From Leptolyngbya sp. (GTDB taxonomy: Bacteria; Cyanobacteriota; Cyanobacteriia; Phormidesmidales; Phormidesmidaceae), in contig QBLT01000016.1 of NCBI GenBank assembly GCA_003249105.1, positions 1 through 35,402 on the forward strand: 35,402 nt of DNA. The letters run 5' to 3'. The notes below the pieces were generated by a model. It was not told the origin of the DNA, made no database searches, and saw only the letters and a program-made list of their open reading frames with translations. Position numbers and translations under genes: made by a program. Positions 4,777 to 35,344 of this stretch are shown here, one piece after another (positions within the stretch are counted from its first letter, which is position 1; each line of letters starts with the position of its first letter).

Positions 4777-5010
4777 ATGGCCAATACGTCAGAGGCCCAC
4801 GAGCAAATTTATCGCTATGTCGAACAGCTTTCCCAAGAGCGGTTAGCTGTGGTGCTAGATTTTTTGTCCTACCTGGTCGAGCGCGAAAGCAACGACGCTA
4901 CAGCCGAGCTATTAGCTCTTCCCAATCTCTCCGCTGAGCTAGAAATTGCCGAACAACAAGTCGTCATAGAAGAGCTAGTAGATTGGCGAGCCCTACGCAG
5001 CGATGTATAG
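4777..5010 (+). CDS. RelB-like / DUF2281-like antitoxin
   Basis: A 77-residue acidic protein, MANTSEAHEQIYRYVEQLSQ onward, with ERLAVVLDFLSYLVERES and a variable C-terminal tail ending DWRALRSDV. The segment YxxQLSxExLxVVxDFLxYLxExE is typical of short antitoxins in cyanobacterial RelBE/ParDE-like loci. The stop TAG at 5008-5010 overlaps the toxin start ATG at 5003 by 8 nt (ATGTATAG), the classic coupled arrangement. The gene itself looks intact. The C-terminal part would be expected to wrap the toxin and the N-terminal part to dimerise; that is inference. Confidence 0.75.
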   Translation: MANTSEAHEQIYRYVEQLSQERLAVVLDFLSYLVERESNDATAELLALPNLSAELEIAEQQVVIEELVDWRALRSDV

Positions 5011-5262
5011 AGTTAGGCTGGTCAAGGGAGTCGCCAAATTTTTTAAGGCCGCCGATACATCTCTAGCTAAGCGCTTCGCCCGAGCATTTGAGAGCTTAGA
5101 ACAAAATCCTGTCAACACCCCAACATTAAGGCATTGAAAGGTGAACTAGCCGGTCGCTATCGTTATCGTGTTGGAGATTACCGCATCATCTACCGCATTG
5201 ATGATGATGCAGAAGAGGTCGTTGTCTTGCTCATCAAGCATCGCCGAGAAGCCTACGATTAG
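5003..5262 (+). pseudogene. RelE/ParE-type toxin, frameshifted
   Basis: The ATG at 5003 opens a frame MYRVRLVKGVAKFFKAAD ... FESLEQNPVNTP that stops at TGA 5135-5137. The rest of a RelE fold continues in the -1 frame from about 5122: NIKALKGELAGRYRYRVGDY, then RIIYRIDDDAEEVVVLLIKH, and ends at TAG 5260-5262. Joined, the two halves give a normal-length RelE/ParE toxin with the usual LKG...YRYRVGDYRIIY core. One base appears to be missing in or near the ACACCCCAAC run at about 5116-5124. The toxin is therefore inactive unless the shift is a sequencing error or is bypassed by -1 slippage; the local bases are not a canonical slippery heptamer. Confidence 0.82.
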
Positions 5263-5274
5263 GCAGGTCTAGCC

Positions 5275-7029
5275 CTACCCCAATCGCTTCTCTGCCCCTG
5301 CTTCCCCCAGCACCTTGGAGCTAAACAACACCGTCGCCTCCTGCTGAATCGCGGTGTATTGGTCGATCACGGGCTGCACCGCCTCTTCTTCGCGCTCTAC
5401 ATAGTCGTAGAACTGGGTAAAGATGCGCTCCACCTCTTCGTAGATCAGCCCCAGCTTTTCGTTGAGGCGGCTCGACACCTCCTGCTGAAAGCGGTCTTTT
5501 TCGCTGTCTAGCGCCTGCTCAAACTTGGCAACAATGCGGTTGCGCTGCCAGAGAATGCCGATCGCCAGCACCACCACCCCCACCCCAGCAAAGGCAATGC
5601 CAATGGCGCTGAGAATCGCCTCGGCCACCGCAAACTCAATGATGTGCAGAATGGTGCCCGCTACCGCCATAATTGCGCCGCCGACAATTTCGTTGGCCAT
5701 GTCGCCCGCCTGGGTCGACAGCACATCGCCCAGGCCTTGATCGGCCATCAAATTCTTAACCTTGGCCATGACGCTCTCGATCACCTCCTGGCGACGCTCC
5801 AGCACTTTGAGAGAAATGTGGCTGCTCTCAATGCGCTGGGTTTTGACGCTCTCCAGGTCTTGGTTGAGCCCGTCAAACAGCTGGCGAATGCCGTCAACGA
5901 AGTGTTGCGCGCCCTCATTCGAGGCTTCTTCTAGCGACTCGCGCAGGTCGCGAGCGCAGCGCTCCTGAAACTCGTCAATCCAGGCCTGCATTGACTCGTT
6001 CTGGTTAAAGATGCCGACGAAGGATCGCCGCATCACCATCATCACCGATAGGCTCTCGCGAAAGTCGCGCTTAATGCGAGCTGAGATGATTTCGTAACGG
6101 GCCGCCAAGCGATCGGCCAGGGTGTTGATCTCGTAACGCGATCGCCCCCTACCCGCATCGATCTTAGAGCGAATGCTTTGGGAGGTGGCGCGATCGGCGA
6201 CTAGCTGCCGATTCAGCGCCTCCACATCGCCATTCAGCAGGTCAATAATCTGCTGGGTGGTCTGGCTGACCGATCGCAGCTTGATTCTGTAGCTTTCCCC
6301 CGACGACACCATCGCCTGAATGTACTGCCGCACTGGCTCAAACCCGCTGTTCGCTGCATCGCCCTCCTGCTCCAGTGCCGCCGAAGTAGGGAAGATGATG
6401 GGGGCTTTAATCTGCTTCTGGTAGGCGTATTCCTTCACCCGCTCGATGTTGGTTTGCAGATCGGCGGGGCGCAGCAGATCGGCCTGCTGAAGAATGAACA
6501 CCACCTTTTTGCGCCACTCAGCGCTGACAAAATCGAGAAAATCCCAGGCGCTCTTTTGGTAGGGGTTTTTGGCAAACAGCACAAAAAACGTCAGGTCGCT
6601 GTTGGGAATGTAGCGCTCGGTAATGATCTGGTGCTCGGCCACCACCGTGTTAGTGCCCGGCGTATCGACAATCGAAATGTCTTGCAGAATCGGGATCGGT
6701 CGGCCAATCTTGCGCAGGCTCGGCTCTACCTGTTCGACAAACTCTTGCTCGGCGTAGACAATCTGCTGAATCGAGTCGGTGCAGGGCTCAATATCGGTGG
6801 CGCACACCTCAGCGTCGAGCAGGGCGTTGACAAAGCTGCTCTTGCCCGCCTTGACCTCGCCGACTACCACAAACAAAAACGGCTCGTTGATGTTGCGGCG
6901 CAGGTTGTGGGTGGTGCGCTGCAAGTTGGGGTTGTTGATGGTGGTGGCCAGGGCCTGCACCCGCTCTAGCAGGCGATCGAGGTCGTCGCGGTAGGCGTGG
7001 AGCTTTTTGTCAATAATTTGGCTGGCCAC
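5275..7029 (-). CDS. Bacterial dynamin-like GTPase
   Basis: A 584-residue dynamin-family protein. G1 is GEVKAGKSSFVNALL (residues 57-71), G3 is DTPGTNTVV (122-130), and the G4 position reads QQAD (181-184) rather than NKxD. The middle is long and helical. A hydrophobic pair-like segment at about 450-493 (GGAIMAVAGTILHIIEF ... VGVVVLAIGILW) is the expected membrane paddle or anchor. A charged C-terminal coiled coil follows. The architecture matches cyanobacterial BDLPs, which bind and remodel membranes. AAGGAG lies 8 bases before the ATG, a strong ribosome site. It converges with the toxin gene with 12 bases between. The precise role (membrane fusion, stress or phage response) is unknown. Confidence 0.9.
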   Translation of the reverse strand: MASQIIDKKLHAYRDDLDRLLERVQALATTINNPNLQRTTHNLRRNINEPFLFVVVGEVKAGKSSFVNALLDAEVCATDIEPCTDSIQQIVYAEQEFVEQVEPSLRKIGRPIPILQDISIVDTPGTNTVVAEHQIITERYIPNSDLTFFVLFAKNPYQKSAWDFLDFVSAEWRKKVVFILQQADLLRPADLQTNIERVKEYAYQKQIKAPIIFPTSAALEQEGDAANSGFEPVRQYIQAMVSSGESYRIKLRSVSQTTQQIIDLLNGDVEALNRQLVADRATSQSIRSKIDAGRGRSRYEINTLADRLAARYEIISARIKRDFRESLSVMMVMRRSFVGIFNQNESMQAWIDEFQERCARDLRESLEEASNEGAQHFVDGIRQLFDGLNQDLESVKTQRIESSHISLKVLERRQEVIESVMAKVKNLMADQGLGDVLSTQAGDMANEIVGGAIMAVAGTILHIIEFAVAEAILSAIGIAFAGVGVVVLAIGILWQRNRIVAKFEQALDSEKDRFQQEVSSRLNEKLGLIYEEVERIFTQFYDYVEREEEAVQPVIDQYTAIQQEATVLFSSKVLGEAGAEKRLG

Positions 7030-19449: not shown

Positions 19450-21000
19450 TTAAGAGCACTCAGCGTTAGAGAGCATATGATCAACGCTGACGGCGCGATC
19501 GCGCCCGTGGTTTTTAGCCCAATACAGGGCCTTATCGGCCAGGGTGACTAGGGTATATGGAGTTTCACCGTGGTGGGGAAAGCTCGCCACGCCTAGGGAA
19601 ATCGTGATTGGTGGCAGTGCCTGACCGTTAAAGGAATTGGTGATATATTTGACGGCTCGACGAATCTTTTCCGCTCGTTTTAGAGCGACTTCCGGGGTGG
19701 TGTCGAGCAGTACCATGCAAAATTCTTCGCCGCCGTAGCGACAGACAATATCCTGAGCGCGCACGTGGCCCCGCAGCAGCATGCCGATATTCTTGAGCAC
19801 GGCATCGCCTGCTTGGTGTCCGTAGGTGTCGTTGATCGCTTTGAAGTGGTCGATGTCGATCAAAATAATGCTGATATTCTGCTGCTTGCTAGCGTGACAC
19901 AGGCTGTTGAGCACAGTTTCGGCATGGCGGCGGTTGAGCAATCCGGTCAGCGGATCCTTTAGCGCCTGATCTTGCAGATCTTCGAGCAGCAGCAGCCGCT
20001 GCATTACAAATAAAATTTGCTCCGACAGTTTTTTCAGCAGTGCCGTCTGCACTGAGGTAAAGGGTTTTGCCTCAATTTGCACCAGCTGCACAATACAGGT
20101 GGTGTCATTGATCATGCCGAGCACGATGCATTTGGTCACCTGCTGAAGGCAATGGGTGACCTGGCACTGGTGGCATTCTTGGCCAACACCAGGTGGCTGA
20201 GCCAACAGCTGTCCCTGGGAATAGCAGCACTGCTGCTCAACCACGGCTAAGGGCTTAGCATCGCCCCACTCCGTGAGTACGGTAAAGCTCTCCAGGGGCG
20301 TTGAAAACAGCACCAGACGCCCCGACTGATGCGGGAAAAAATAGGGCAAATATGTCCCTAATAGCTGGCCCAACTGTTTGTAAGATAGGCATGACTGAAG
20401 CTGAGCCACCAAATCGGCCAAGCGAGGATGACCGTGCTGGACGCGATCGTAGACAGCGCCACTAGGGTTTAGCGCCACCACCCGCGACAAAAAATCGACG
20501 CCATCGGGGGATGCACTCACCGTCGGGCTGGGCGTCACCCCAGGCAGCGGCGCTGGGGTAGCGGGTTGGGTTAAAGCCAGGCACAAAAGCAGCTGCTGGG
20601 TGAGGTATTGAAGGGTTTTAACCTGTACTTCACTCAGCTGATTTACGGCTAACCCAGGCACATAAATTGTAAAGTGATATCGGTAGTCGGTGCTGTGCAA
20701 ACGCCCTACCAGTACTGGTATCGGGCTAGCTTCAGCATGTGGACCCGGTTGGCTATGGGTGCTAAGGGAAAGCTGATCGCATTCTAGAAATGTTGCCCCT
20801 ATCGGCTGACTTGACAGCACCTCTCGCAGCGTGGCAGCGGGCAGTTGACCGTAGTTCATTACCCCACCGTAGCGCCAGTCATCGCCCACCTGAACCGTTA
20901 GCGCTAGCTGAGGGGCAGACAGAGTTAGTGAGGTAAGCCGCAAAAAGTTGCATAGGGCTGGGTAGGCATCTCCTAAAGATGTCGGTCGAACTTGGTTCAT
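19450..21000 (-). CDS. Diguanylate cyclase with GAF-like sensor
   Basis: A 516-residue protein. Its C-terminal GGDEF domain (about 345-505) starts DPLTGLLNRRHAE and carries IDIDHFKAINDTYGHQAGD and the active-site loop RYGGEEF (GGEEF 423-427). A product-inhibition I-site RAQD (414-417) lies the standard five residues before it, so it should make c-di-GMP with feedback control. The N-terminal 150 residues look like a separate alpha/beta sensor. Residues about 185-335 look GAF-like and hold cysteines 258, 259, 276, 279, 284 and 291. No transmembrane segments are visible, so it is cytosolic. It converges with vipp1 and diverges from the aminotransferase. Confidence 0.9.
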   Translation of the reverse strand: MNQVRPTSLGDAYPALCNFLRLTSLTLSAPQLALTVQVGDDWRYGGVMNYGQLPAATLREVLSSQPIGATFLECDQLSLSTHSQPGPHAEASPIPVLVGRLHSTDYRYHFTIYVPGLAVNQLSEVQVKTLQYLTQQLLLCLALTQPATPAPLPGVTPSPTVSASPDGVDFLSRVVALNPSGAVYDRVQHGHPRLADLVAQLQSCLSYKQLGQLLGTYLPYFFPHQSGRLVLFSTPLESFTVLTEWGDAKPLAVVEQQCCYSQGQLLAQPPGVGQECHQCQVTHCLQQVTKCIVLGMINDTTCIVQLVQIEAKPFTSVQTALLKKLSEQILFVMQRLLLLEDLQDQALKDPLTGLLNRRHAETVLNSLCHASKQQNISIILIDIDHFKAINDTYGHQAGDAVLKNIGMLLRGHVRAQDIVCRYGGEEFCMVLLDTTPEVALKRAEKIRRAVKYITNSFNGQALPPITISLGVASFPHHGETPYTLVTLADKALYWAKNHGRDRAVSVDHMLSNAECS

Positions 21001-26677: not shown

Positions 26678-28345
26678 ATGAGTTCTTTGGTGTCGTGGAT
26701 GGGTAAAGGCAACGGAATTTGGGTACGGCAGCCCTGGCGGCGAGTGGTGCAGTTTGTGGGGCTGTTTGGGCTGGTGTTTGCGATCGCTCTGGGCTGCGCC
26801 GGCAACGACCAGCCCGCCGCCGATGCCCCCGCTGGCGATAGCGATGGCCGCATTACCATTGGCACCACCCTCACCGCCCGCACCCTCGACCCCGCCGACG
26901 CCTACGAGACCTTCCCCGGCATTTTGCTCTACAACCTGGGCGATCGCCTCTACACCTACGAGCCCGGCACCACCAACCTGGTACCCCAGCTCGCCACCGA
27001 GCTGCCCACCGTCAGCGAAGATGGCCTGACCTACACCATTTCCCTGCGGGACGACGTCACCCTCCACGACGGCACCCCCTTCAATGCCGAGGTGATGGCC
27101 TTTTCCGTCCAGCGGTTTATGGAGAATGGCGGTCGCCCCGCCTATCTGCTGTCTGACAAAATTGCCACCGCCGAGGCCACGGGAGACTACGAACTTACCC
27201 TCACCCTCAAGACTCCCTTTGCGGCATTTCCGGCCCTACTGAGCTTTTCGGGCGTCACCCCGGTCTCGCCCGACAGCTACGAGATTGGCACCGGCAGCTT
27301 TAAGCCCGACAGCTTTGTCGGCACCGGCCCCTACAAGCTGTCGGGCTTCACCAGCGACTCGATTAAACTTGACGTCAACCCCGACTACTGGGGCGACGCC
27401 CCCGCCAACCAGGGCATCGACATTCAAATCTTTACCAGCCCCGCCAACCTCTACAACACCTTTAGAACTGGCGGCCTTGACATTGCCTACCAAACCCTTG
27501 ACCCCGAGCAGGTAGCGGCCCTAGAGCGCGAAGAAAGCTCCGGCGGCTGGCAGGTGATCGAGGCGGGCACCAACGTGATCAACTACATGGCGCTCAACCA
27601 AAAGATCGCGCCACTGAACGATGTGCGGGTGCGCCAGGCGATCGCCGCCATGATCGATCGCCCCCTGCTCAACGAGCGCGTCTTCCAGGGCCAGGCCGAA
27701 CCCCTCTACAGTCTGATTCCCGCCAGCTTTGACATTGCTAAGCCAGTGTTCAAAGATGCCTACGGCGACGGCGATTTTGACAAAGCCAAAACCCTGCTCA
27801 CCGAAGCTGGATTCTCAGAGGCTAATCCGCTCACGCTAGAAATCTGGTATCCCTCGGCTTCTACCACCCGCAGCATTGTCGCCAACACCCTCAAAGAATC
27901 GATCGAGGCGGGCCTACCGGGCTTGGTGACGGTGAGCGTTCAGAATACTGAAGGGGCTACCCTCTGGGAAAACGTGGGCAAAGGCATTTACCCCATCGTT
28001 TTGGCCAACTGGTACCCCGATTACTACGACCCCGACACCTTCATCCAGCCCTTTATGAGCTGCGAGAAAGGCAGTAACAATCTCTGCGAAGAAGGGCCTT
28101 CCCAGGCCAACGGCTCGTTTTACTACAGCCCCGAAGCCAATCAGCTCGTGGCTAAACAGCAGGCCGAGCAAGACCCTGACGCTCGCCAGCAGGCGATCGC
28201 CGACCTCCAGCAGATGATGGTCGACGATGTGCCCTACGTGCCCCTGTGGCAAAACAAAGACTACGTCTTCGCCCAAGACGGCATAGAGGGTGTGGCTGTA
28301 GAACCTACGCAGCAGTTTTTGCTCTGGCAGATCAGCCGGGGATAG
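26678..28345 (+). CDS. ABC transporter substrate-binding lipoprotein, family 5
   Basis: A 555-residue periplasmic binding protein of the peptide/nickel family (DppA/OppA/NikA-like). The N-terminus has arginines, a hydrophobic core, and the lipobox IALGC with Cys40, predicting a lipoprotein anchored in the plasma membrane. The mature part shows the family signature ARTLDPADAYETFPGILLYNLGDRLYTY, TYTISLRDDVTLHDGTPFNAEVMAFS, RVRQAIAAMIDRPLLNERVF, and a C-terminal DVPYVPLWQNKDYVF. The ligand is not predictable. It precedes the permease gene by 200 bases containing an AATTCAAA repeat. The ATG at 26678 and an ATG seven codons on are both possible. Confidence 0.92.
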   Translation: MSSLVSWMGKGNGIWVRQPWRRVVQFVGLFGLVFAIALGCAGNDQPAADAPAGDSDGRITIGTTLTARTLDPADAYETFPGILLYNLGDRLYTYEPGTTNLVPQLATELPTVSEDGLTYTISLRDDVTLHDGTPFNAEVMAFSVQRFMENGGRPAYLLSDKIATAEATGDYELTLTLKTPFAAFPALLSFSGVTPVSPDSYEIGTGSFKPDSFVGTGPYKLSGFTSDSIKLDVNPDYWGDAPANQGIDIQIFTSPANLYNTFRTGGLDIAYQTLDPEQVAALEREESSGGWQVIEAGTNVINYMALNQKIAPLNDVRVRQAIAAMIDRPLLNERVFQGQAEPLYSLIPASFDIAKPVFKDAYGDGDFDKAKTLLTEAGFSEANPLTLEIWYPSASTTRSIVANTLKESIEAGLPGLVTVSVQNTEGATLWENVGKGIYPIVLANWYPDYYDPDTFIQPFMSCEKGSNNLCEEGPSQANGSFYYSPEANQLVAKQQAEQDPDARQQAIADLQQMMVDDVPYVPLWQNKDYVFAQDGIEGVAVEPTQQFLLWQISRG

Positions 28346-28390
28346 GGAGAGATGAGGGAGGAGGGACGATGAGGAGATGGGAAGACGGAC

Positions 28391-28440
28391 GAATTCAAAA
28401 TTCAAAGTTAAGAATTCAAAATTTTGAACTTTGAACTTTG
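28391..28440. repeat. AATTCAAA-rich dispersed repeat, copy 3
   Basis: Nearly identical to 3042-3090 over 45 bases (GAATTCAAAATTCAAAGTT, then AAGAATTCAAAATTTTGAAC), with an added TTTGAACTTTG. It sits between the ABC binding-protein and permease genes. Confidence 0.8.
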
Positions 28441-28545
28441 CACTTCCCCTTCCTCCTCGTCACCTTGCAGAAAGCCGTTCCGCGTCTGTATCTCCCTCAC
28501 TTCTCCATTCACCCTAACCCCCTCACCCTCTTTTACTCCCCCTTT

Positions 28546-29574
28546 ATGTCCTCCCGCTCCGCCGCTCTGCGCTACTACATCTTCACTCGGCTGCTGCTGG
28601 CTCCACTGATGATTTTGACCATCACGACGGTGGTGTTTTTGCTGCTGCGGGCGACACCGGGCGACCCGGTCGATGCACTGTTGGGGGCACGGGCTCCGGC
28701 GGCGGCGAAGGAGGCGCTCCGGTCACAGCTCGGCCTGGATCAGCCCTTGTTCATCCAATACTTAAGCTACCTGGGGGATCTGCTGCGGCTAGATCTGGGG
28801 TCTTCGCTGGCCACCCAGGGGCAGACGGTGTGGCAAATTATTCGGGCGCATTTTCCCGCCACGGTAGAGCTGACGGTGTGCGGCATGCTGGTGGCCACAG
28901 CGGTGGGGATTGGCGTTGGTGCCTTGGCGGCCTCGCGCCCCAACTCGCCGCTGGATGCGGGGGGGCGGCTGTTTGGCATCATTACCTACGCCATTCCGAT
29001 GTACTGGTTTGGCATGATTTTGCAGCTTATTTTTGCGGTGCAGCTGCGCTGGTTTCCCATCGGCACCCGCTACCCTCTGCGGGCCGCGCCCCCGGCCGGG
29101 CCAACTGGGCTCTACCTGCTCGATAGCCTGCTGATGCTGGACTTTGGCGCATTTTTGACCACCCTGTATTACCTAGCTTTGCCCAGCCTGACCCTGGGGA
29201 TTTTAATCAGCGGGGTATTTGAGCGCATGGTGCGGGTCAACCTGAAGCAAACCTTGGCCGCAGACTACGTGGAGGCGGCGCGGGCGCGGGGCATTCCTGA
29301 GCGGCGCATTGTGCTGGTACACGCGCTGAAGAATGCGATGATTCCGGTGATTACGATTTTGGGATTGACCTTTGCCTCTATGCTGGGGGGCGCGGTGCTC
29401 ACGGAGGTGACGTTTTCGTGGCCGGGGTTGGCCAACCGCCTCTACGAAGCGATCTCCCAACGCGACTATCCGGTGGTGCAGGGGCTGATGGTATTTTTCG
29501 CCATGATTGTGGCGGTGATCAGCATTGCGATCGATATTTTGAATGCCTACATTGACCCTCGCATTCGCTACTAG
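28546..29574 (+). CDS. ABC transporter permease, DppB-like
   Basis: A 342-residue inner-membrane permease of the dipeptide/oligopeptide/nickel family. TM1 is RLLLAPLMILTITTVVFLLL followed by RATPGDPVDALLG. The family motif LGLDQPLFIQYLSYL, a FPATVELTV segment, and the EAA cytoplasmic loop DYVEAARARGIPERRIVLVHALKNAMIPVI are clear, with about six membrane segments. It ends IDPRIRY, usual for DppB. The ATG at 28546 removes an upstream stretch that reads through non-coding sequence. It presumably works with the preceding binding protein; no DppC-type permease or ATPase gene is in the window, so partners must be encoded elsewhere. Confidence 0.92.
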   Translation: MSSRSAALRYYIFTRLLLAPLMILTITTVVFLLLRATPGDPVDALLGARAPAAAKEALRSQLGLDQPLFIQYLSYLGDLLRLDLGSSLATQGQTVWQIIRAHFPATVELTVCGMLVATAVGIGVGALAASRPNSPLDAGGRLFGIITYAIPMYWFGMILQLIFAVQLRWFPIGTRYPLRAAPPAGPTGLYLLDSLLMLDFGAFLTTLYYLALPSLTLGILISGVFERMVRVNLKQTLAADYVEAARARGIPERRIVLVHALKNAMIPVITILGLTFASMLGGAVLTEVTFSWPGLANRLYEAISQRDYPVVQGLMVFFAMIVAVISIAIDILNAYIDPRIRY

Positions 29575-29957: not shown

Positions 29958-30782
29958 ATGCCAGTGGATGTTTTAAGCCGCAACAATGTCAAGGTGATGG
30001 GCCAGGGGCGGCGACCCCTGGTGATGGCCCACGGCTTTGGCTGCGACCAAAAGATGTGGCGGTTTGTGGCCCCCGCCTTTGCCGCCGACTATCGACTGGT
30101 TTTGTTTGACTATGTGGGGTTTGGTCAGTCAGATGTGACTACCTACGATCCGCAGCGCTACAGCCACCTGCAGGGCTATGCCCAGGATGTTTTGGACATC
30201 TGTGCGGCGCTGGATCTGGAGAAAGCTATCTTTGTCGGCCATTCGGTGAGCAGCATGATTGGTCTGCTGGCGGCGATCGCTGCCCCTGAGCGCTTTGAGC
30301 GGCTGGTGATGATTGGCCCATCCCCCTGCTACATCAACGACGACGACTATGTGGGCGGCTTTGAACGGTTGGATATTGATCAGCTGCTCGACATTATGGA
30401 GAAAAACTACATCGGCTGGGCGCACTTTTTGGCCCCGGTGGTGATGCAGAACGCCGATCGCCCCCAGCTGACCCAGGAGCTAGAGGAAAGCTTTTGCTCC
30501 ACCGACCCCGCCATTGCCACGCGGTTTGCCAGGGCTACTTTCTATGGCGACAACCGCCGCGATTTGGCCAGGGCACCGGTGCCCTCCCTGATTTTGCAGT
30601 GCAAAGACGATGCGATCGCCCCCGCTGAGGTGGGGCAATACCTGCACCAGCACTTGCCCCACAGCACCCTGGCCCTGATGGAAGCCACGGGCCACTGCCC
30701 CCACATGAGCCATCCTGACGAAACCATTCAGCGCATCAAAACCTATTTGGAGGCGGCCAGTCTGAGTCCGGCCTATGGTTAA
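29958..30782 (+). CDS. RsbQ-like alpha/beta hydrolase
   Basis: A 274-residue alpha/beta hydrolase close to RsbQ. The oxyanion region is [13 protein letters not shown], and [10 protein letters not shown] follows. The nucleophile is Ser96 in [10 protein letters not shown], the acid Asp217 in [16 protein letters not shown], and the base His246 in [12 protein letters not shown]. These blocks match my memory of Bacillus RsbQ (GHSVS, KDxxASPEVGQYM, GHCxHM) at almost the same numbering. RsbQ activates its PAS partner RsbP under energy stress, and plant KAI2/D14 receptors belong to the same lineage. Its stop overlaps the start of a PAS-GAF-GGDEF gene by 8 nt, so that protein is the likely partner. 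Its small-molecule ligand is unknown. Confidence 0.93.
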
Positions 30783-32421
30783 CCGGAGTTCTACCCCGAT
30801 GTCTGCGCCCCAGGGTGTAGACCCCCTGCTCGACCAGGCTCCCTGCGGGTTTCTGTCGGTGCGCGACGACGGCGTCATCGAGTACGCCAATGCCACGCTG
30901 CTGACCCTGCTGGGCTGGGAGGCGCTACAGGGTCAAAACATTGTGGCGATTTTGCCTTTGGCCAGCCGCATTTTTTACCAGACCCACGTGTTCCCGATGC
31001 TGCGGGTGCAGGGAGCGGTGAGCGAAATTTACTTTTCCCTGCGATCGCGATCGGGGCAAGACATTCCTATTTTGGCCAACGGGGTGCGGCGGCAGCGCCA
31101 GGGCGACGCCATCAACGACTGCGTGGTGATTCCTATTTGTCAGCGCATGCAGTACGAAGACGAAATTTTGCGGGCCAAAAGGCAGGCCGAGGCCGCGATT
31201 AGCGCCCAAAAGCAGGCCGAGGCCACCCTCAAGCATCAGTACGAGCGGGCCGTAGCCCTGGGGCAAATTACCCAGCACATTCGAGACTCGCTCGATCTGA
31301 CGCAAATTTTTGCGATCGCGGCCCAGGAGGTTCGCCAGTGCCTAGCGGCCGATCGGGTGGGCATCTATCGCTTCACCACCGCCGATGGGGCGGCGGACGG
31401 TAGTTTTGTGTCGGAGGCGGTGGCTCCGGGGGTTGACTCGGTCATGGCGGCCCAGGTGCCACACCAGGGGTTTGGCGATCACTACCGAGGCATTCGCCAC
31501 AACGCTGGTACCCTGGCGATTCGAGACATTCACGAAATGCGGCTGTTGGACGAGCACAGCCAGCTGTTCAGCCAGTTTCAGGTACAGGCCAGCCTGGTGG
31601 TGCCTCTGCAAAAGGGGACTGACCTGTGGGGGCTAATTGTGATTCACCACTGCTCAGGGCCGCGCTACTGGCAGGGGGTTGAGGTCGAACTGGTAGAAGA
31701 CATTGCCGCACAGCTGGCGATCGCCATTCACCAGGCCGACCTAGTGCAACGGCTGCAGAGCGAACTGCAAGAGCGCCAGCGCACCGAAGTGCGCCTGACC
31801 CAGCTCAACGCTGAACTGCAACGGGCTACGGGGTTGCTAGAGCAGATGGCCCACATCGACCCGCTGACCCAGATTGCCAACCGTCGCCGCTTTAGCGATC
31901 GCCTTGGGCAAGAGTGGGCTCGCCTCTGCCGCGATCGCCTGCCGCTCTCCCTGCTGCTGTTTGATGTTGACTACTTCAAGGGCTACAACGACACCTACGG
32001 CCATCAGTCGGGCGATGAATGCCTTTACGCCATTGCCCAGGCCGTCCAGGGAGTGTTGGGTCGCCCCACCGATCTGCTGGCTCGCTACGGCGGCGAAGAG
32101 TTTGCCGTCATCTTGCCCAATACGATTCAATCAGGGGCGATCGCGGTGGCTCGTCACATCCATCAGGCGATCGCGGCCCTGGCCATCTCTCACGCTGACT
32201 CAGCGGTGGGTTCCCAGATTACAATTAGTCTAGGCATCAGTACCCTCATTCCCTCCCAAAAACTCACCTCTGCGGTGCTGATTCGGCAGGCCGACCAGGC
32301 CCTCTACCGAGCCAAACAGCAGGGACGCAATCGGTCGGTGGTGTTTGACCCGACCATGGTTGACCCGGCCACAGTTGAGCCTGAGCTAACGTCTGCCTAC
32401 CACCCCTGGGCTAACCGTTAG
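30775..32421 (+). CDS. PAS-GAF-GGDEF diguanylate cyclase, RsbQ partner
   Basis: A 548-residue cytosolic signalling enzyme. The N-terminal PAS domain (about 15-130) reads [36 protein letters not shown] and [20 protein letters not shown], closely like the RsbP PAS domain as I remember it. A coiled-coil helix (about 135-165), a GAF domain (about 170-325, with [11 protein letters not shown] and [20 protein letters not shown]) and a short second coiled coil follow. The GGDEF domain has [30 protein letters not shown] and GGEEF (439-443), with I-site RPTD (430-433), so it should be an active, feedback-inhibited cyclase. The start ATG at 30775 overlaps the hydrolase stop (ATGGTTAA); an ATG at 30799 is the alternative. 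Confidence 0.92.
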
Positions 32422-32659: not shown

Positions 32660-35344
32660 ATGCAGCCAACCGATCCCGATCAGTTTACCGCCAAAGCCTG
32701 GGACGCCATCGTTGAGGCCCAGGACGTGGCTCGCCGCTGCAAACATCAATATATGGAGGTCGAGCACGTGCTAATCGCGCTGCTCGATCAGGAAGAAGAC
32801 GGGCTGGCTCACAAAATTCTCGCTAAGGCGGGCCTTGACAGCGACCAGATTCTCGACGATCTAGAGACCTTTGCCCAGCGCCAGGCCCGCGTGCGCCCTG
32901 GCGTCGACAGCAACCTCTACCTGGGCCAGAGCCTCGATCGCATGCTCGATGGGGCCGAGGCGGCGCGCCAAACCCTCAAAGATAAATTCATCTCGGTTGA
33001 GCACTTGCTGCTGGGTTTTCAGGAAGACGAGCGCATTGGCCGCAGGCTGCTGCGGGGCTTCAACGTCGAAGGCCCCGAGCTAATGGCCGCCGTGCAGGCG
33101 GTGCGCGGCAGTCAAAAAGTCACCGACCAAAACCCCGAGCAGCAGTACGACGCTCTGGAAAAATATGGCATTGACCTCACTCAGCTAGCCCGCGACGGCA
33201 AGCTCGACCCCGTGATTGGCCGCGACGATGAGATCCGCCGCGTGATTCAGGTGCTGTCGCGGCGCACGAAAAACAACCCCGTGGTGATTGGCGAGCCGGG
33301 GGTGGGCAAGACGGCGATCGCCGAAGCCCTAGCCCAGCGCATCATCAACGGCGAGGTGCCCGAATCGCTCAAGGGTCGCACGCTGATTTCGTTAGACATC
33401 GGCGGGCTGATTGCCGGAGCTAAGTTTCGCGGCGAGTTTGAAGAACGGCTGCGGCTGGTGCTCAAGGAAGTCACCGACTCCGCCGGACAGGTGGTGCTGT
33501 TTATCGACGAGCTGCACACGGTGGTCGGAGCCGGAGCGGGCCAGGGCACCATGGATGCCAGCAACCTGCTCAAACCCATGCTAGCCCGAGGCGAGCTGCG
33601 CTGCATCGGGGCCACTACCCTCGACGAATACCGCAAGCACATTGAAAAAGACGCCGCCCTGGAGCGCCGCTTTCAGCAGGTGTATGTGGGCCAGCCCAGC
33701 GCCGAAGACACCATTTCCATTCTGCGGGGGCTAAAAAAACGCTACGAGTCGTACCACGGCGTCGATATTGCCGACAGCGCCCTGGTGGCGGCGGCGGTGC
33801 TCTCGGATCGCTACATCGCCGATCGCTTTTTGCCCGACAAAGCCATCGACCTGGTGGATGAAGCCGCCGCCAAGCTCAAGATGGAAATCACCTCCAAACC
33901 CGAGGAGCTGGAGGGCATCGAGCGCCGCCTCATGCAGCTCGAAATGGAAAAGCTGTCGCTAGAGGCCGAAAACGGCTCCATGACCAAGGCCTCGCGCCAG
34001 CGCCTCAATCGCATCGAGCAAGAGATTGCCGAACTCCAGGCCAAGCAGCAGTCCTTTAGCGGTCAGTGGCAGAGTGAAAAGCAGGCTCTCGATGCCATTC
34101 ACGCCCTCAAAGACGAAGAAGACCAGATTCGTCTGCAAATTGAGCAGGCCGAGCGGGCCTACGATCTCAATAAGGCCGCCAAACTCAAGTACGACAGTTT
34201 GGAAAAGATTCAGCGCGATCGCGAAACCCTAGAGGCCCAGCTAGTCGAAGTTCAGGCTAAGGGCAACACCCTGCTGCGCGAGCAGGTCACCGAGGCCGAC
34301 ATCGCCGAAATCGTCGCCAAGTGGACGGGCATCCCCGTCAACCGGCTGATGGAGTCGGAGCGGCAAAAGCTGCTCCAGCTCGAAGGCCACCTGCACGAGC
34401 GCGTCATCGGTCAAGACGAAGCCGTAGAAGCCGTGGCGGCCGCCATTCGCCGCGCCCGCGCGGGCATGAACGACCAGGGCCGTCCCCTGGGATCCTTCCT
34501 ATTTATGGGGCCGACGGGGGTGGGCAAGACCGAGCTGGCCCGCGCCTTGGCGGAGTTTCTCTTCGACACCGAAGATGCCCTGATTCGCATCGACATGTCG
34601 GAGTACATGGAGAAAAACGCCGTGTCGCGGCTGGTGGGGGCACCTCCCGGCTATGTCGGTTACGAAGACGGCGGTCAGCTCTCCGAGGCGGTGCGTCGCC
34701 ACCCCTACTCGGTGGTGCTGCTGGATGAAGTAGAAAAAGCCCACCCTGACGTGTTCAACATTCTCTTGCAGGTGCTCGACGACGGTCGCATCACCGACTC
34801 CCAGGGCCACCGGGTCGATTTCCGTAACACCGTGGTGATCATGACCAGCAACCTGGGCAGCGACCACATTCTAGAGCTGGCGGGGGACGACGATCGCTAC
34901 GACGAAATGCGCGTCCAGGTGCTCAAAGCGCTGCAAAAGCAGTTTCGCCCCGAGTTCCTCAACCGGGTGGATGACCTTATCCTCTTCCACTCCCTGCGCA
35001 AGAGCGAGCTGCGCAAGATTGTGGCTTTGCAAATTCGCCGGGTGCAGCGCCGATTAGCTGACCAAACCATTGGCCTAGAGATTGCCGATTCGGCGATCGA
35101 CTTCATTGCCGAGAGCGGCTATGACCCGGTGTACGGTGCTCGTCCCCTGAAGCGAGCCATCCAGCGGCTGCTAGAGAATCCGATCGCCACCAAGATTCTA
35201 GAGACCACCTTTGCCCAGGGCGCGACCATCACCGTGGACTTGCAGGACGGCAAGCTGGCGTTTGACCACCGCGAGCCCGCCGCCTCTGAGGTGCTCGCCA
35301 TCGAGGATGAAACGGCCAAGGTGGAGTCCGTGGTGGGAGGGTAG
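32660..35344 (+). CDS. clpB: ATP-dependent chaperone ClpB
   Basis: An 894-residue AAA+ disaggregase that, with DnaK, pulls polypeptides from aggregates. The N-domain (1-150) has the double Clp-N repeat ([46 protein letters not shown]). NBD1 has Walker [15 protein letters not shown] (about 210-223) and Walker [16 protein letters not shown] (about 277-291). The long middle coiled-coil domain (about 400-530) marks ClpB rather than ClpC/ClpA. NBD2 has Walker [15 protein letters not shown] (about 617-630) and [14 protein letters not shown], the pore loop GYVGYEDGG and the arginine-finger region [11 protein letters not shown]. It lacks an IGF/L loop for ClpP. The ATG at 32660 follows GGAGATT. About 58 bases to the window end hold no called gene. 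Confidence 0.96.

Follow-up and report, generated by a model that had tools for sequence, protein, structure and literature searches.

The gene pair and its hydrolase

Two genes lie in immediate succession on the plus strand of the window, the whole 35,402-nt stretch of Leptolyngbya sp. DNA that was analysed, and the coordinates of the pair and its features refer to that strand. The first gene (29958..30782) encodes an RsbQ-type alpha/beta hydrolase of 274 aa, identified from its open reading frame and its sequence match in the PDB. The second (30775..32421) encodes a 548-aa PAS-GAF-GGDEF diguanylate cyclase, identified from its open reading frame, Pfam and an AlphaFold2 model with a mean pLDDT of 82. 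The two frames overlap by 8 nt (30775..30782). Upstream of the pair are genes for a peptide-type ABC substrate-binding protein and a permease (26678-29574), and downstream is clpB (32660-35344). A second GGDEF domain is present in the window at 19495-19962 (ORF 19450-21000, minus strand), approximately 10 kb from the pair.

In a sequence search of the PDB, the best match to the hydrolase was Bacillus subtilis RsbQ (1wom, E 2.9e-112, 378 bits), followed by Olei00960 (277 bits) and then, at about 200-216 bits, by plant KAI2/D14 proteins and a bacterial hydrolase. By bit score, RsbQ is thus a nearer solved relative than KAI2/D14 or the other hydrolases. Identity to the RsbQ homologue of Bacillus inaquosorum is 59.8% over 266 residues. 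The catalytic triad consists of Ser96 as nucleophile (codon 30243..30245), Asp218 (30609..30611) and His246 (30693..30695), and all three residues are unchanged in an alignment of the 299 paired homologues described below. The initial annotation had recognized both the 8-nt overlap and an RsbQ-type hydrolase, and its Ser96 and His246 are correct; its Asp217, however, has to be replaced by Asp218, since alignment of the "KDD" segment with RsbQ makes the second Asp the invariant one, and position 217 is Asp in only 148 of the 299 homologues.

An RsbP-class PAS domain

Generic Pfam PAS models reached at best an E value of about 3e-4 on the second protein, under their cut-offs, and an RsbP-class PAS profile was therefore made from proteins encoded next to the hydrolase at the named loci L085-L148, excluding those from cyanobacteria. 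Against this non-cyanobacterial profile the N-terminal region of the cyclase (residues about 18-120; 30826..31134), modelled mostly at pLDDT 92-97, scores 142 bits. Nadezhdin et al. defined the class by C10, L13, L48, Q53, F55, C56, Y59, E72 and P86 of RsbP, and the nine class positions in the window PAS (C24, L27, L60, R65, F67, Y68, H71, E84 and P98) all carry the consensus residue, as does P74, the counterpart of RsbP P62. The F-alpha helix, placed at residues 62-79 (30958..31011) by alignment and the AlphaFold2 model, contains F67, H71 and P74, which align with F55, Y59 and P62 of RsbP. The DIT motif, which is typical of ordinary PAS domains (PMC3183031), was absent when the sequence at the C-terminus of the window PAS was inspected. 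These results bear out the earlier description of the domain as RsbP-like. Genome-wide, this PAS class occurs once, the window PAS scoring 266 bits and the next match 22 bits, which leaves the hydrolase a single evident partner.

GAF, GGDEF and helical linkers

In the AlphaFold2 model a continuous helix (residues 121-172; 31135..31290) leads from the PAS to a GAF domain (31294..31728; Pfam GAF 174-318, E 1e-19). The top PDB sequence matches to the GAF region include the cyanobacteriochrome chains 6oap, 8k9o and 6bhn, and the equivalent GAF at locus L084 matches 6oap with an E value of 2e-38. Judged by these matches, the window GAF is a member of the cyanobacteriochrome family. The cyanobacterial GAFs of loci L048, L049, L050, L051, L052, L071, L082 and L084 have the canonical Cys, with His or Tyr as the next residue. 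In the GAF alignment, this bilin-attaching Cys (Cys-His or Cys-Tyr in bilin-binding relatives) is missing from the window, where the position is Glu260 (codon 31552..31554), and from the nine loci of the genus that share its gene neighbourhood, which also have Glu. A photosensory input is therefore possible in the relatives and unlikely here, and we have not classed the window GAF as a photoreceptor.

The GAF could still act as the dominant input of the cyclase, leaving the hydrolase and PAS as a residual or modulatory module. Its family membership and the bilin Cys kept by several cyanobacterial relatives speak for this reading, but the replacement of Cys by Glu in the window and its nine close relatives, together with full retention of the triad and of the PAS class residues, makes it very improbable.

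A second helical linker (residues 301-360; 31675..31854, AlphaFold2 model) joins the GAF to the GGDEF domain (31849..32334; Pfam E 9e-53). As first annotated, the GAF is followed by a GGDEF domain with both of its motifs intact, namely the GGEEF active site (residues 439-443; 32089-32103) and the RxxD I-site, here RPTD (residues 430-433; 32062-32073), and on these motifs the protein is predicted to be an active diguanylate cyclase. A Foldseek search with the full cyclase model returned the phytochrome-activated cyclase PadC and WspR as best matches, with low multi-domain TM-scores. The 5.08-Mb draft genome contains about 38 GGDEF domains. Its five matches to the PSII reaction-centre family (Photo_RC) mark the host as a cyanobacterium.

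Conservation of the pair and exchange of outputs

The hydrolase was found in 10 of 24 sampled genomes of the same genus and is missing from the other 14, and is therefore dispensable. Wherever it occurs in this sample, a PAS-GAF-GGDEF gene lies directly downstream (10/10 loci), in eight cases with the same 8-nt overlap. Nine of the ten pairs sit beside clpB, and in nine same-genus genomes the permease and clpB flank the pair at the same position.

Beyond the genus, an RsbP-class PAS is encoded near the hydrolase and on the same strand, at a median spacing of 47 nt, in 299 of 328 hydrolase loci, a count in which distant hydrolases, and loci interrupted by the end of a contig, are included. These loci belong to Cyanobacteria, Bacillota, Bacteroidota, Gemmatimonadota, Acidobacteriota, Chloroflexota and others. 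Conservation of the pair in relatives, to which the initial annotation had tied its reading, is thus observed both within the genus and across phyla. Because the same overlap or near-contact is retained in relatives, the pairing is not due to chance. The view that an unrelated esterase gene happens to stand beside a cyclase gene would have to account for this spacing in 299 loci over several phyla and for a hydrolase and PAS that remain paired across differing outputs; we rejected such fortuitous adjacency on conservation and regard it as extremely improbable.

The output domains of the 299 pairs are GGDEF (134), histidine kinase (100), PPM phosphatase (24) and class III cyclase (1), with 40 unclear or truncated. 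On a hydrolase tree of 105 rows, 10 changes of output are needed, and one cyanobacterial hydrolase clade of 26 (support 89) alone contains GGDEF, kinase and class III cyclase outputs. The window hydrolase is placed in a clade with Pseudanabaena, Leptolyngbyaceae, Planktothrix and Geminocystis. Since the output changes across the tree while the pair is kept, hydrolase and PAS travel together. The swap of output relative to Bacillus RsbP that was proposed for the window holds, with GGDEF standing where RsbP has a PPM phosphatase. No natural hydrolase-PAS fusion occurs among the 299 pairs; long open frames at L181 and L187 were considered as fusions and rejected as separate genes. A search of viral contigs for relatives of the hydrolase found none.

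Related loci with other arrangements

In Planktothrix paucivesiculata PCC 9631 (L080), an RsbP-class PAS (149 bits) is joined to a class III adenylate/guanylate cyclase (PF00211, E 3e-20) at 4880-5941, and an RsbQ homologue (66% identity) lies directly downstream at 5995-6819, the gene order being reversed. This class III nucleotidyl cyclase is a probable output beyond the three described in 2011.

Three cyanobacterial loci (L056, L057 and L059) carry hydrolases of a separate clade, 45-48% identical to that of the window, whose genes overlap or abut others that encode large, Hpt-containing hybrid histidine kinases. The RsbP-PAS profile detected no RsbP-class PAS in these kinases, and the partner interface may therefore differ. 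A further member of this clade (L058) adjoins a 776-aa PAS and class III cyclase protein. Cyanobacterial genomes of about 2.5 Mb (L064, L067 and L068) encode distant hydrolases (35-36% identity) 3-40 nt upstream of a GGDEF protein of 443-446 aa in which a weak PAS-like stretch scores 5-9 bits against the RsbP-PAS profile; these are possibly an independent hydrolase-cyclase pairing.

At Paenibacillales loci (L114, L125 and others, for example L170 and L173), the gene after the RsbQ homologue encodes just a PAS, in a protein of about 160-190 aa whose frame contains no output domain. The pair at L055 (G109) is apparently decayed, with a hydrolase frame truncated to 198 aa and a 160-aa fragment that ends shortly after the PAS. 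The hydrolase at L054 (G379) belongs to the main cyanobacterial clade, has no PAS protein nearby and is missing part of the conserved "ESFCSTDP" segment.

Co-inheritance of hydrolase and PAS

Over the 299 pairs, hydrolase and PAS distances correlate at 0.80. Inter-protein couplings were computed by a mean-field method from 183 effective sequences for 375 columns. The mean of the top 20 couplings was 1.16 for the real pairing, against 0.77-0.84 in eight clade-preserving shuffles and 0.68-0.73 in five full shuffles, where the shuffled sets hold more effective sequences than the real pairing and fine-scale phylogeny is still present. Given the few effective sequences and their larger number in the shuffled sets, the couplings are taken as suggestive only of coevolution between the two proteins. 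Enrichment of couplings at the PAS F-alpha helix was no higher than in the clade-preserving shuffles, and we therefore claim no interface from this analysis.

Proposed mechanism

Taken together, the evidence supports the initial annotation's interpretation of the pair as a bipartite RsbQ-PAS sensing module with a diguanylate cyclase output. This class of system was already known, as cyclase-output pairs were catalogued in 2011, when Nadezhdin, Brody and Price (PLoS One; PMC3183031) described 45 RsbQ/RsbP-PAS pairs whose outputs were PPM, kinase or diguanylate cyclase domains and proposed two sensing models. RsbQ contacts the PAS of RsbP, and the F55A substitution abolishes binding and signalling (PMC3183031). 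An AlphaFold2 model of a 2RsbP/2RsbQ complex puts RsbQ between the PAS and the linker, and the same work counts the module among the parts of an exchangeable toolkit that transmits through coiled coils (eLife 2025; PMC12143880). By analogy with B. subtilis RsbQP, direct hydrolase-PAS contact, a need for the triad and transmission through the linker to the GGDEF dimer would be expected in the window pair.

We infer that the hydrolase controls c-di-GMP synthesis in a manner analogous to KAI2/D14 hormone receptors. A small hydrophobic molecule would be bound, and perhaps slowly hydrolysed, by the hydrolase, which in one of its states would dock on the RsbP-class PAS domains of the cyclase dimer at their F-alpha/linker face. 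The resulting change could be relayed along the helix between PAS and GAF and through the coiled coil between GAF and GGDEF, altering how the two GGDEF domains meet, so that c-di-GMP synthesis would track the state of the ligand, while product inhibition at the RxxD I-site may limit cyclase output. With about 38 GGDEF domains in the genome, total c-di-GMP may change little as a result. Such ligand-dependent regulation of the cyclase by the hydrolase through direct contact is, on the analogy with RsbQP, the probable mode of action.

In Model 1 of Nadezhdin et al., by contrast, the hydrolase produces or alters a ligand or cofactor, and the PAS (or GAF) then senses it. Retention of the triad in 299/299 pairs indicates that catalysis may be essential, and in B. 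subtilis mutating the RsbQ triad gives a null phenotype (PMC3183031), both of which suit a supplying enzyme. The PAS surface residues for RsbQ contact are kept, however, and the KAI2/D14 relatives act as receptors, although neither point separates the two models. We consider a supplying role unlikely, and direct, ligand-dependent control remains the preferred reading.

Butenolide perception by B. subtilis RsbQ has reportedly been described by Melville et al. in Current Biology in 2024. It is conceivable, if rather doubtful, that cyanobacterial proteins combining RsbQ-PAS, a cyanobacteriochrome GAF and a cyclase read a KAI2-like chemical signal together with light ahead of c-di-GMP synthesis, and that the window lineage, having lost the Cys, would have become a chemical sensor, possibly of an endogenous butenolide-like compound or apocarotenoid.

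Significance

The pair is a well-supported further case of the module described in 2011, in a new host group, and not a new system. New here are the exchange of cyclase, kinase and, in one case, a probable class III nucleotidyl cyclase behind a single module within one cyanobacterial clade, and a cyanobacteriochrome-type GAF whose bilin Cys has been lost. The former bears on the exchange of signalling modules. In addition, two genes with soluble products and an enzymatic readout offer a convenient ligand-hunting assay for RsbQ-PAS modules. In the literature searched, which was mostly non-subscription, we found no biochemical test of a cyclase-coupled RsbQ-PAS pair and nothing that combines RsbQ with cyanobacteria, adenylate cyclase or cyanobacteriochrome.

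Comparison with known systems

The window pair resembles the RsbQ/RsbP-PAS cyclase modules of 2011 in having the RsbQ gene immediately upstream, an RsbP-class PAS as the most N-terminal domain, a helical linker (the modelled helix 121-172) and a GGDEF output. It differs from them in its cyanobacterial host and in the extra cyanobacteriochrome-family GAF between PAS and GGDEF; all 45 pairs of 2011 came from organo-heterotrophs, and there is no mention of cyanobacteria or of GAF in the text (PMC3183031). Compared with the B. inaquosorum pair, the hydrolase is 60% and the PAS 39% identical, with the class residues kept. Unlike the RsbQ-RsbP energy-stress pair of B. subtilis, the window pair has a GGDEF output in place of a PPM phosphatase and an added GAF.

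The hydrolase shares its family and triad with the plant KAI2/D14 receptors for karrikins and strigolactones, which signal via an F-box protein and a repressor, whereas its own expected partner is a PAS domain. The RsbT-controlled diguanylate cyclase of Moorella is similar in that a general-stress partner acts on the N-terminal domain of a GAF-bearing GGDEF cyclase, although there the partners are RsbT and an RsbU N-terminal domain, and in the window they are RsbQ and PAS (PMC12143880).
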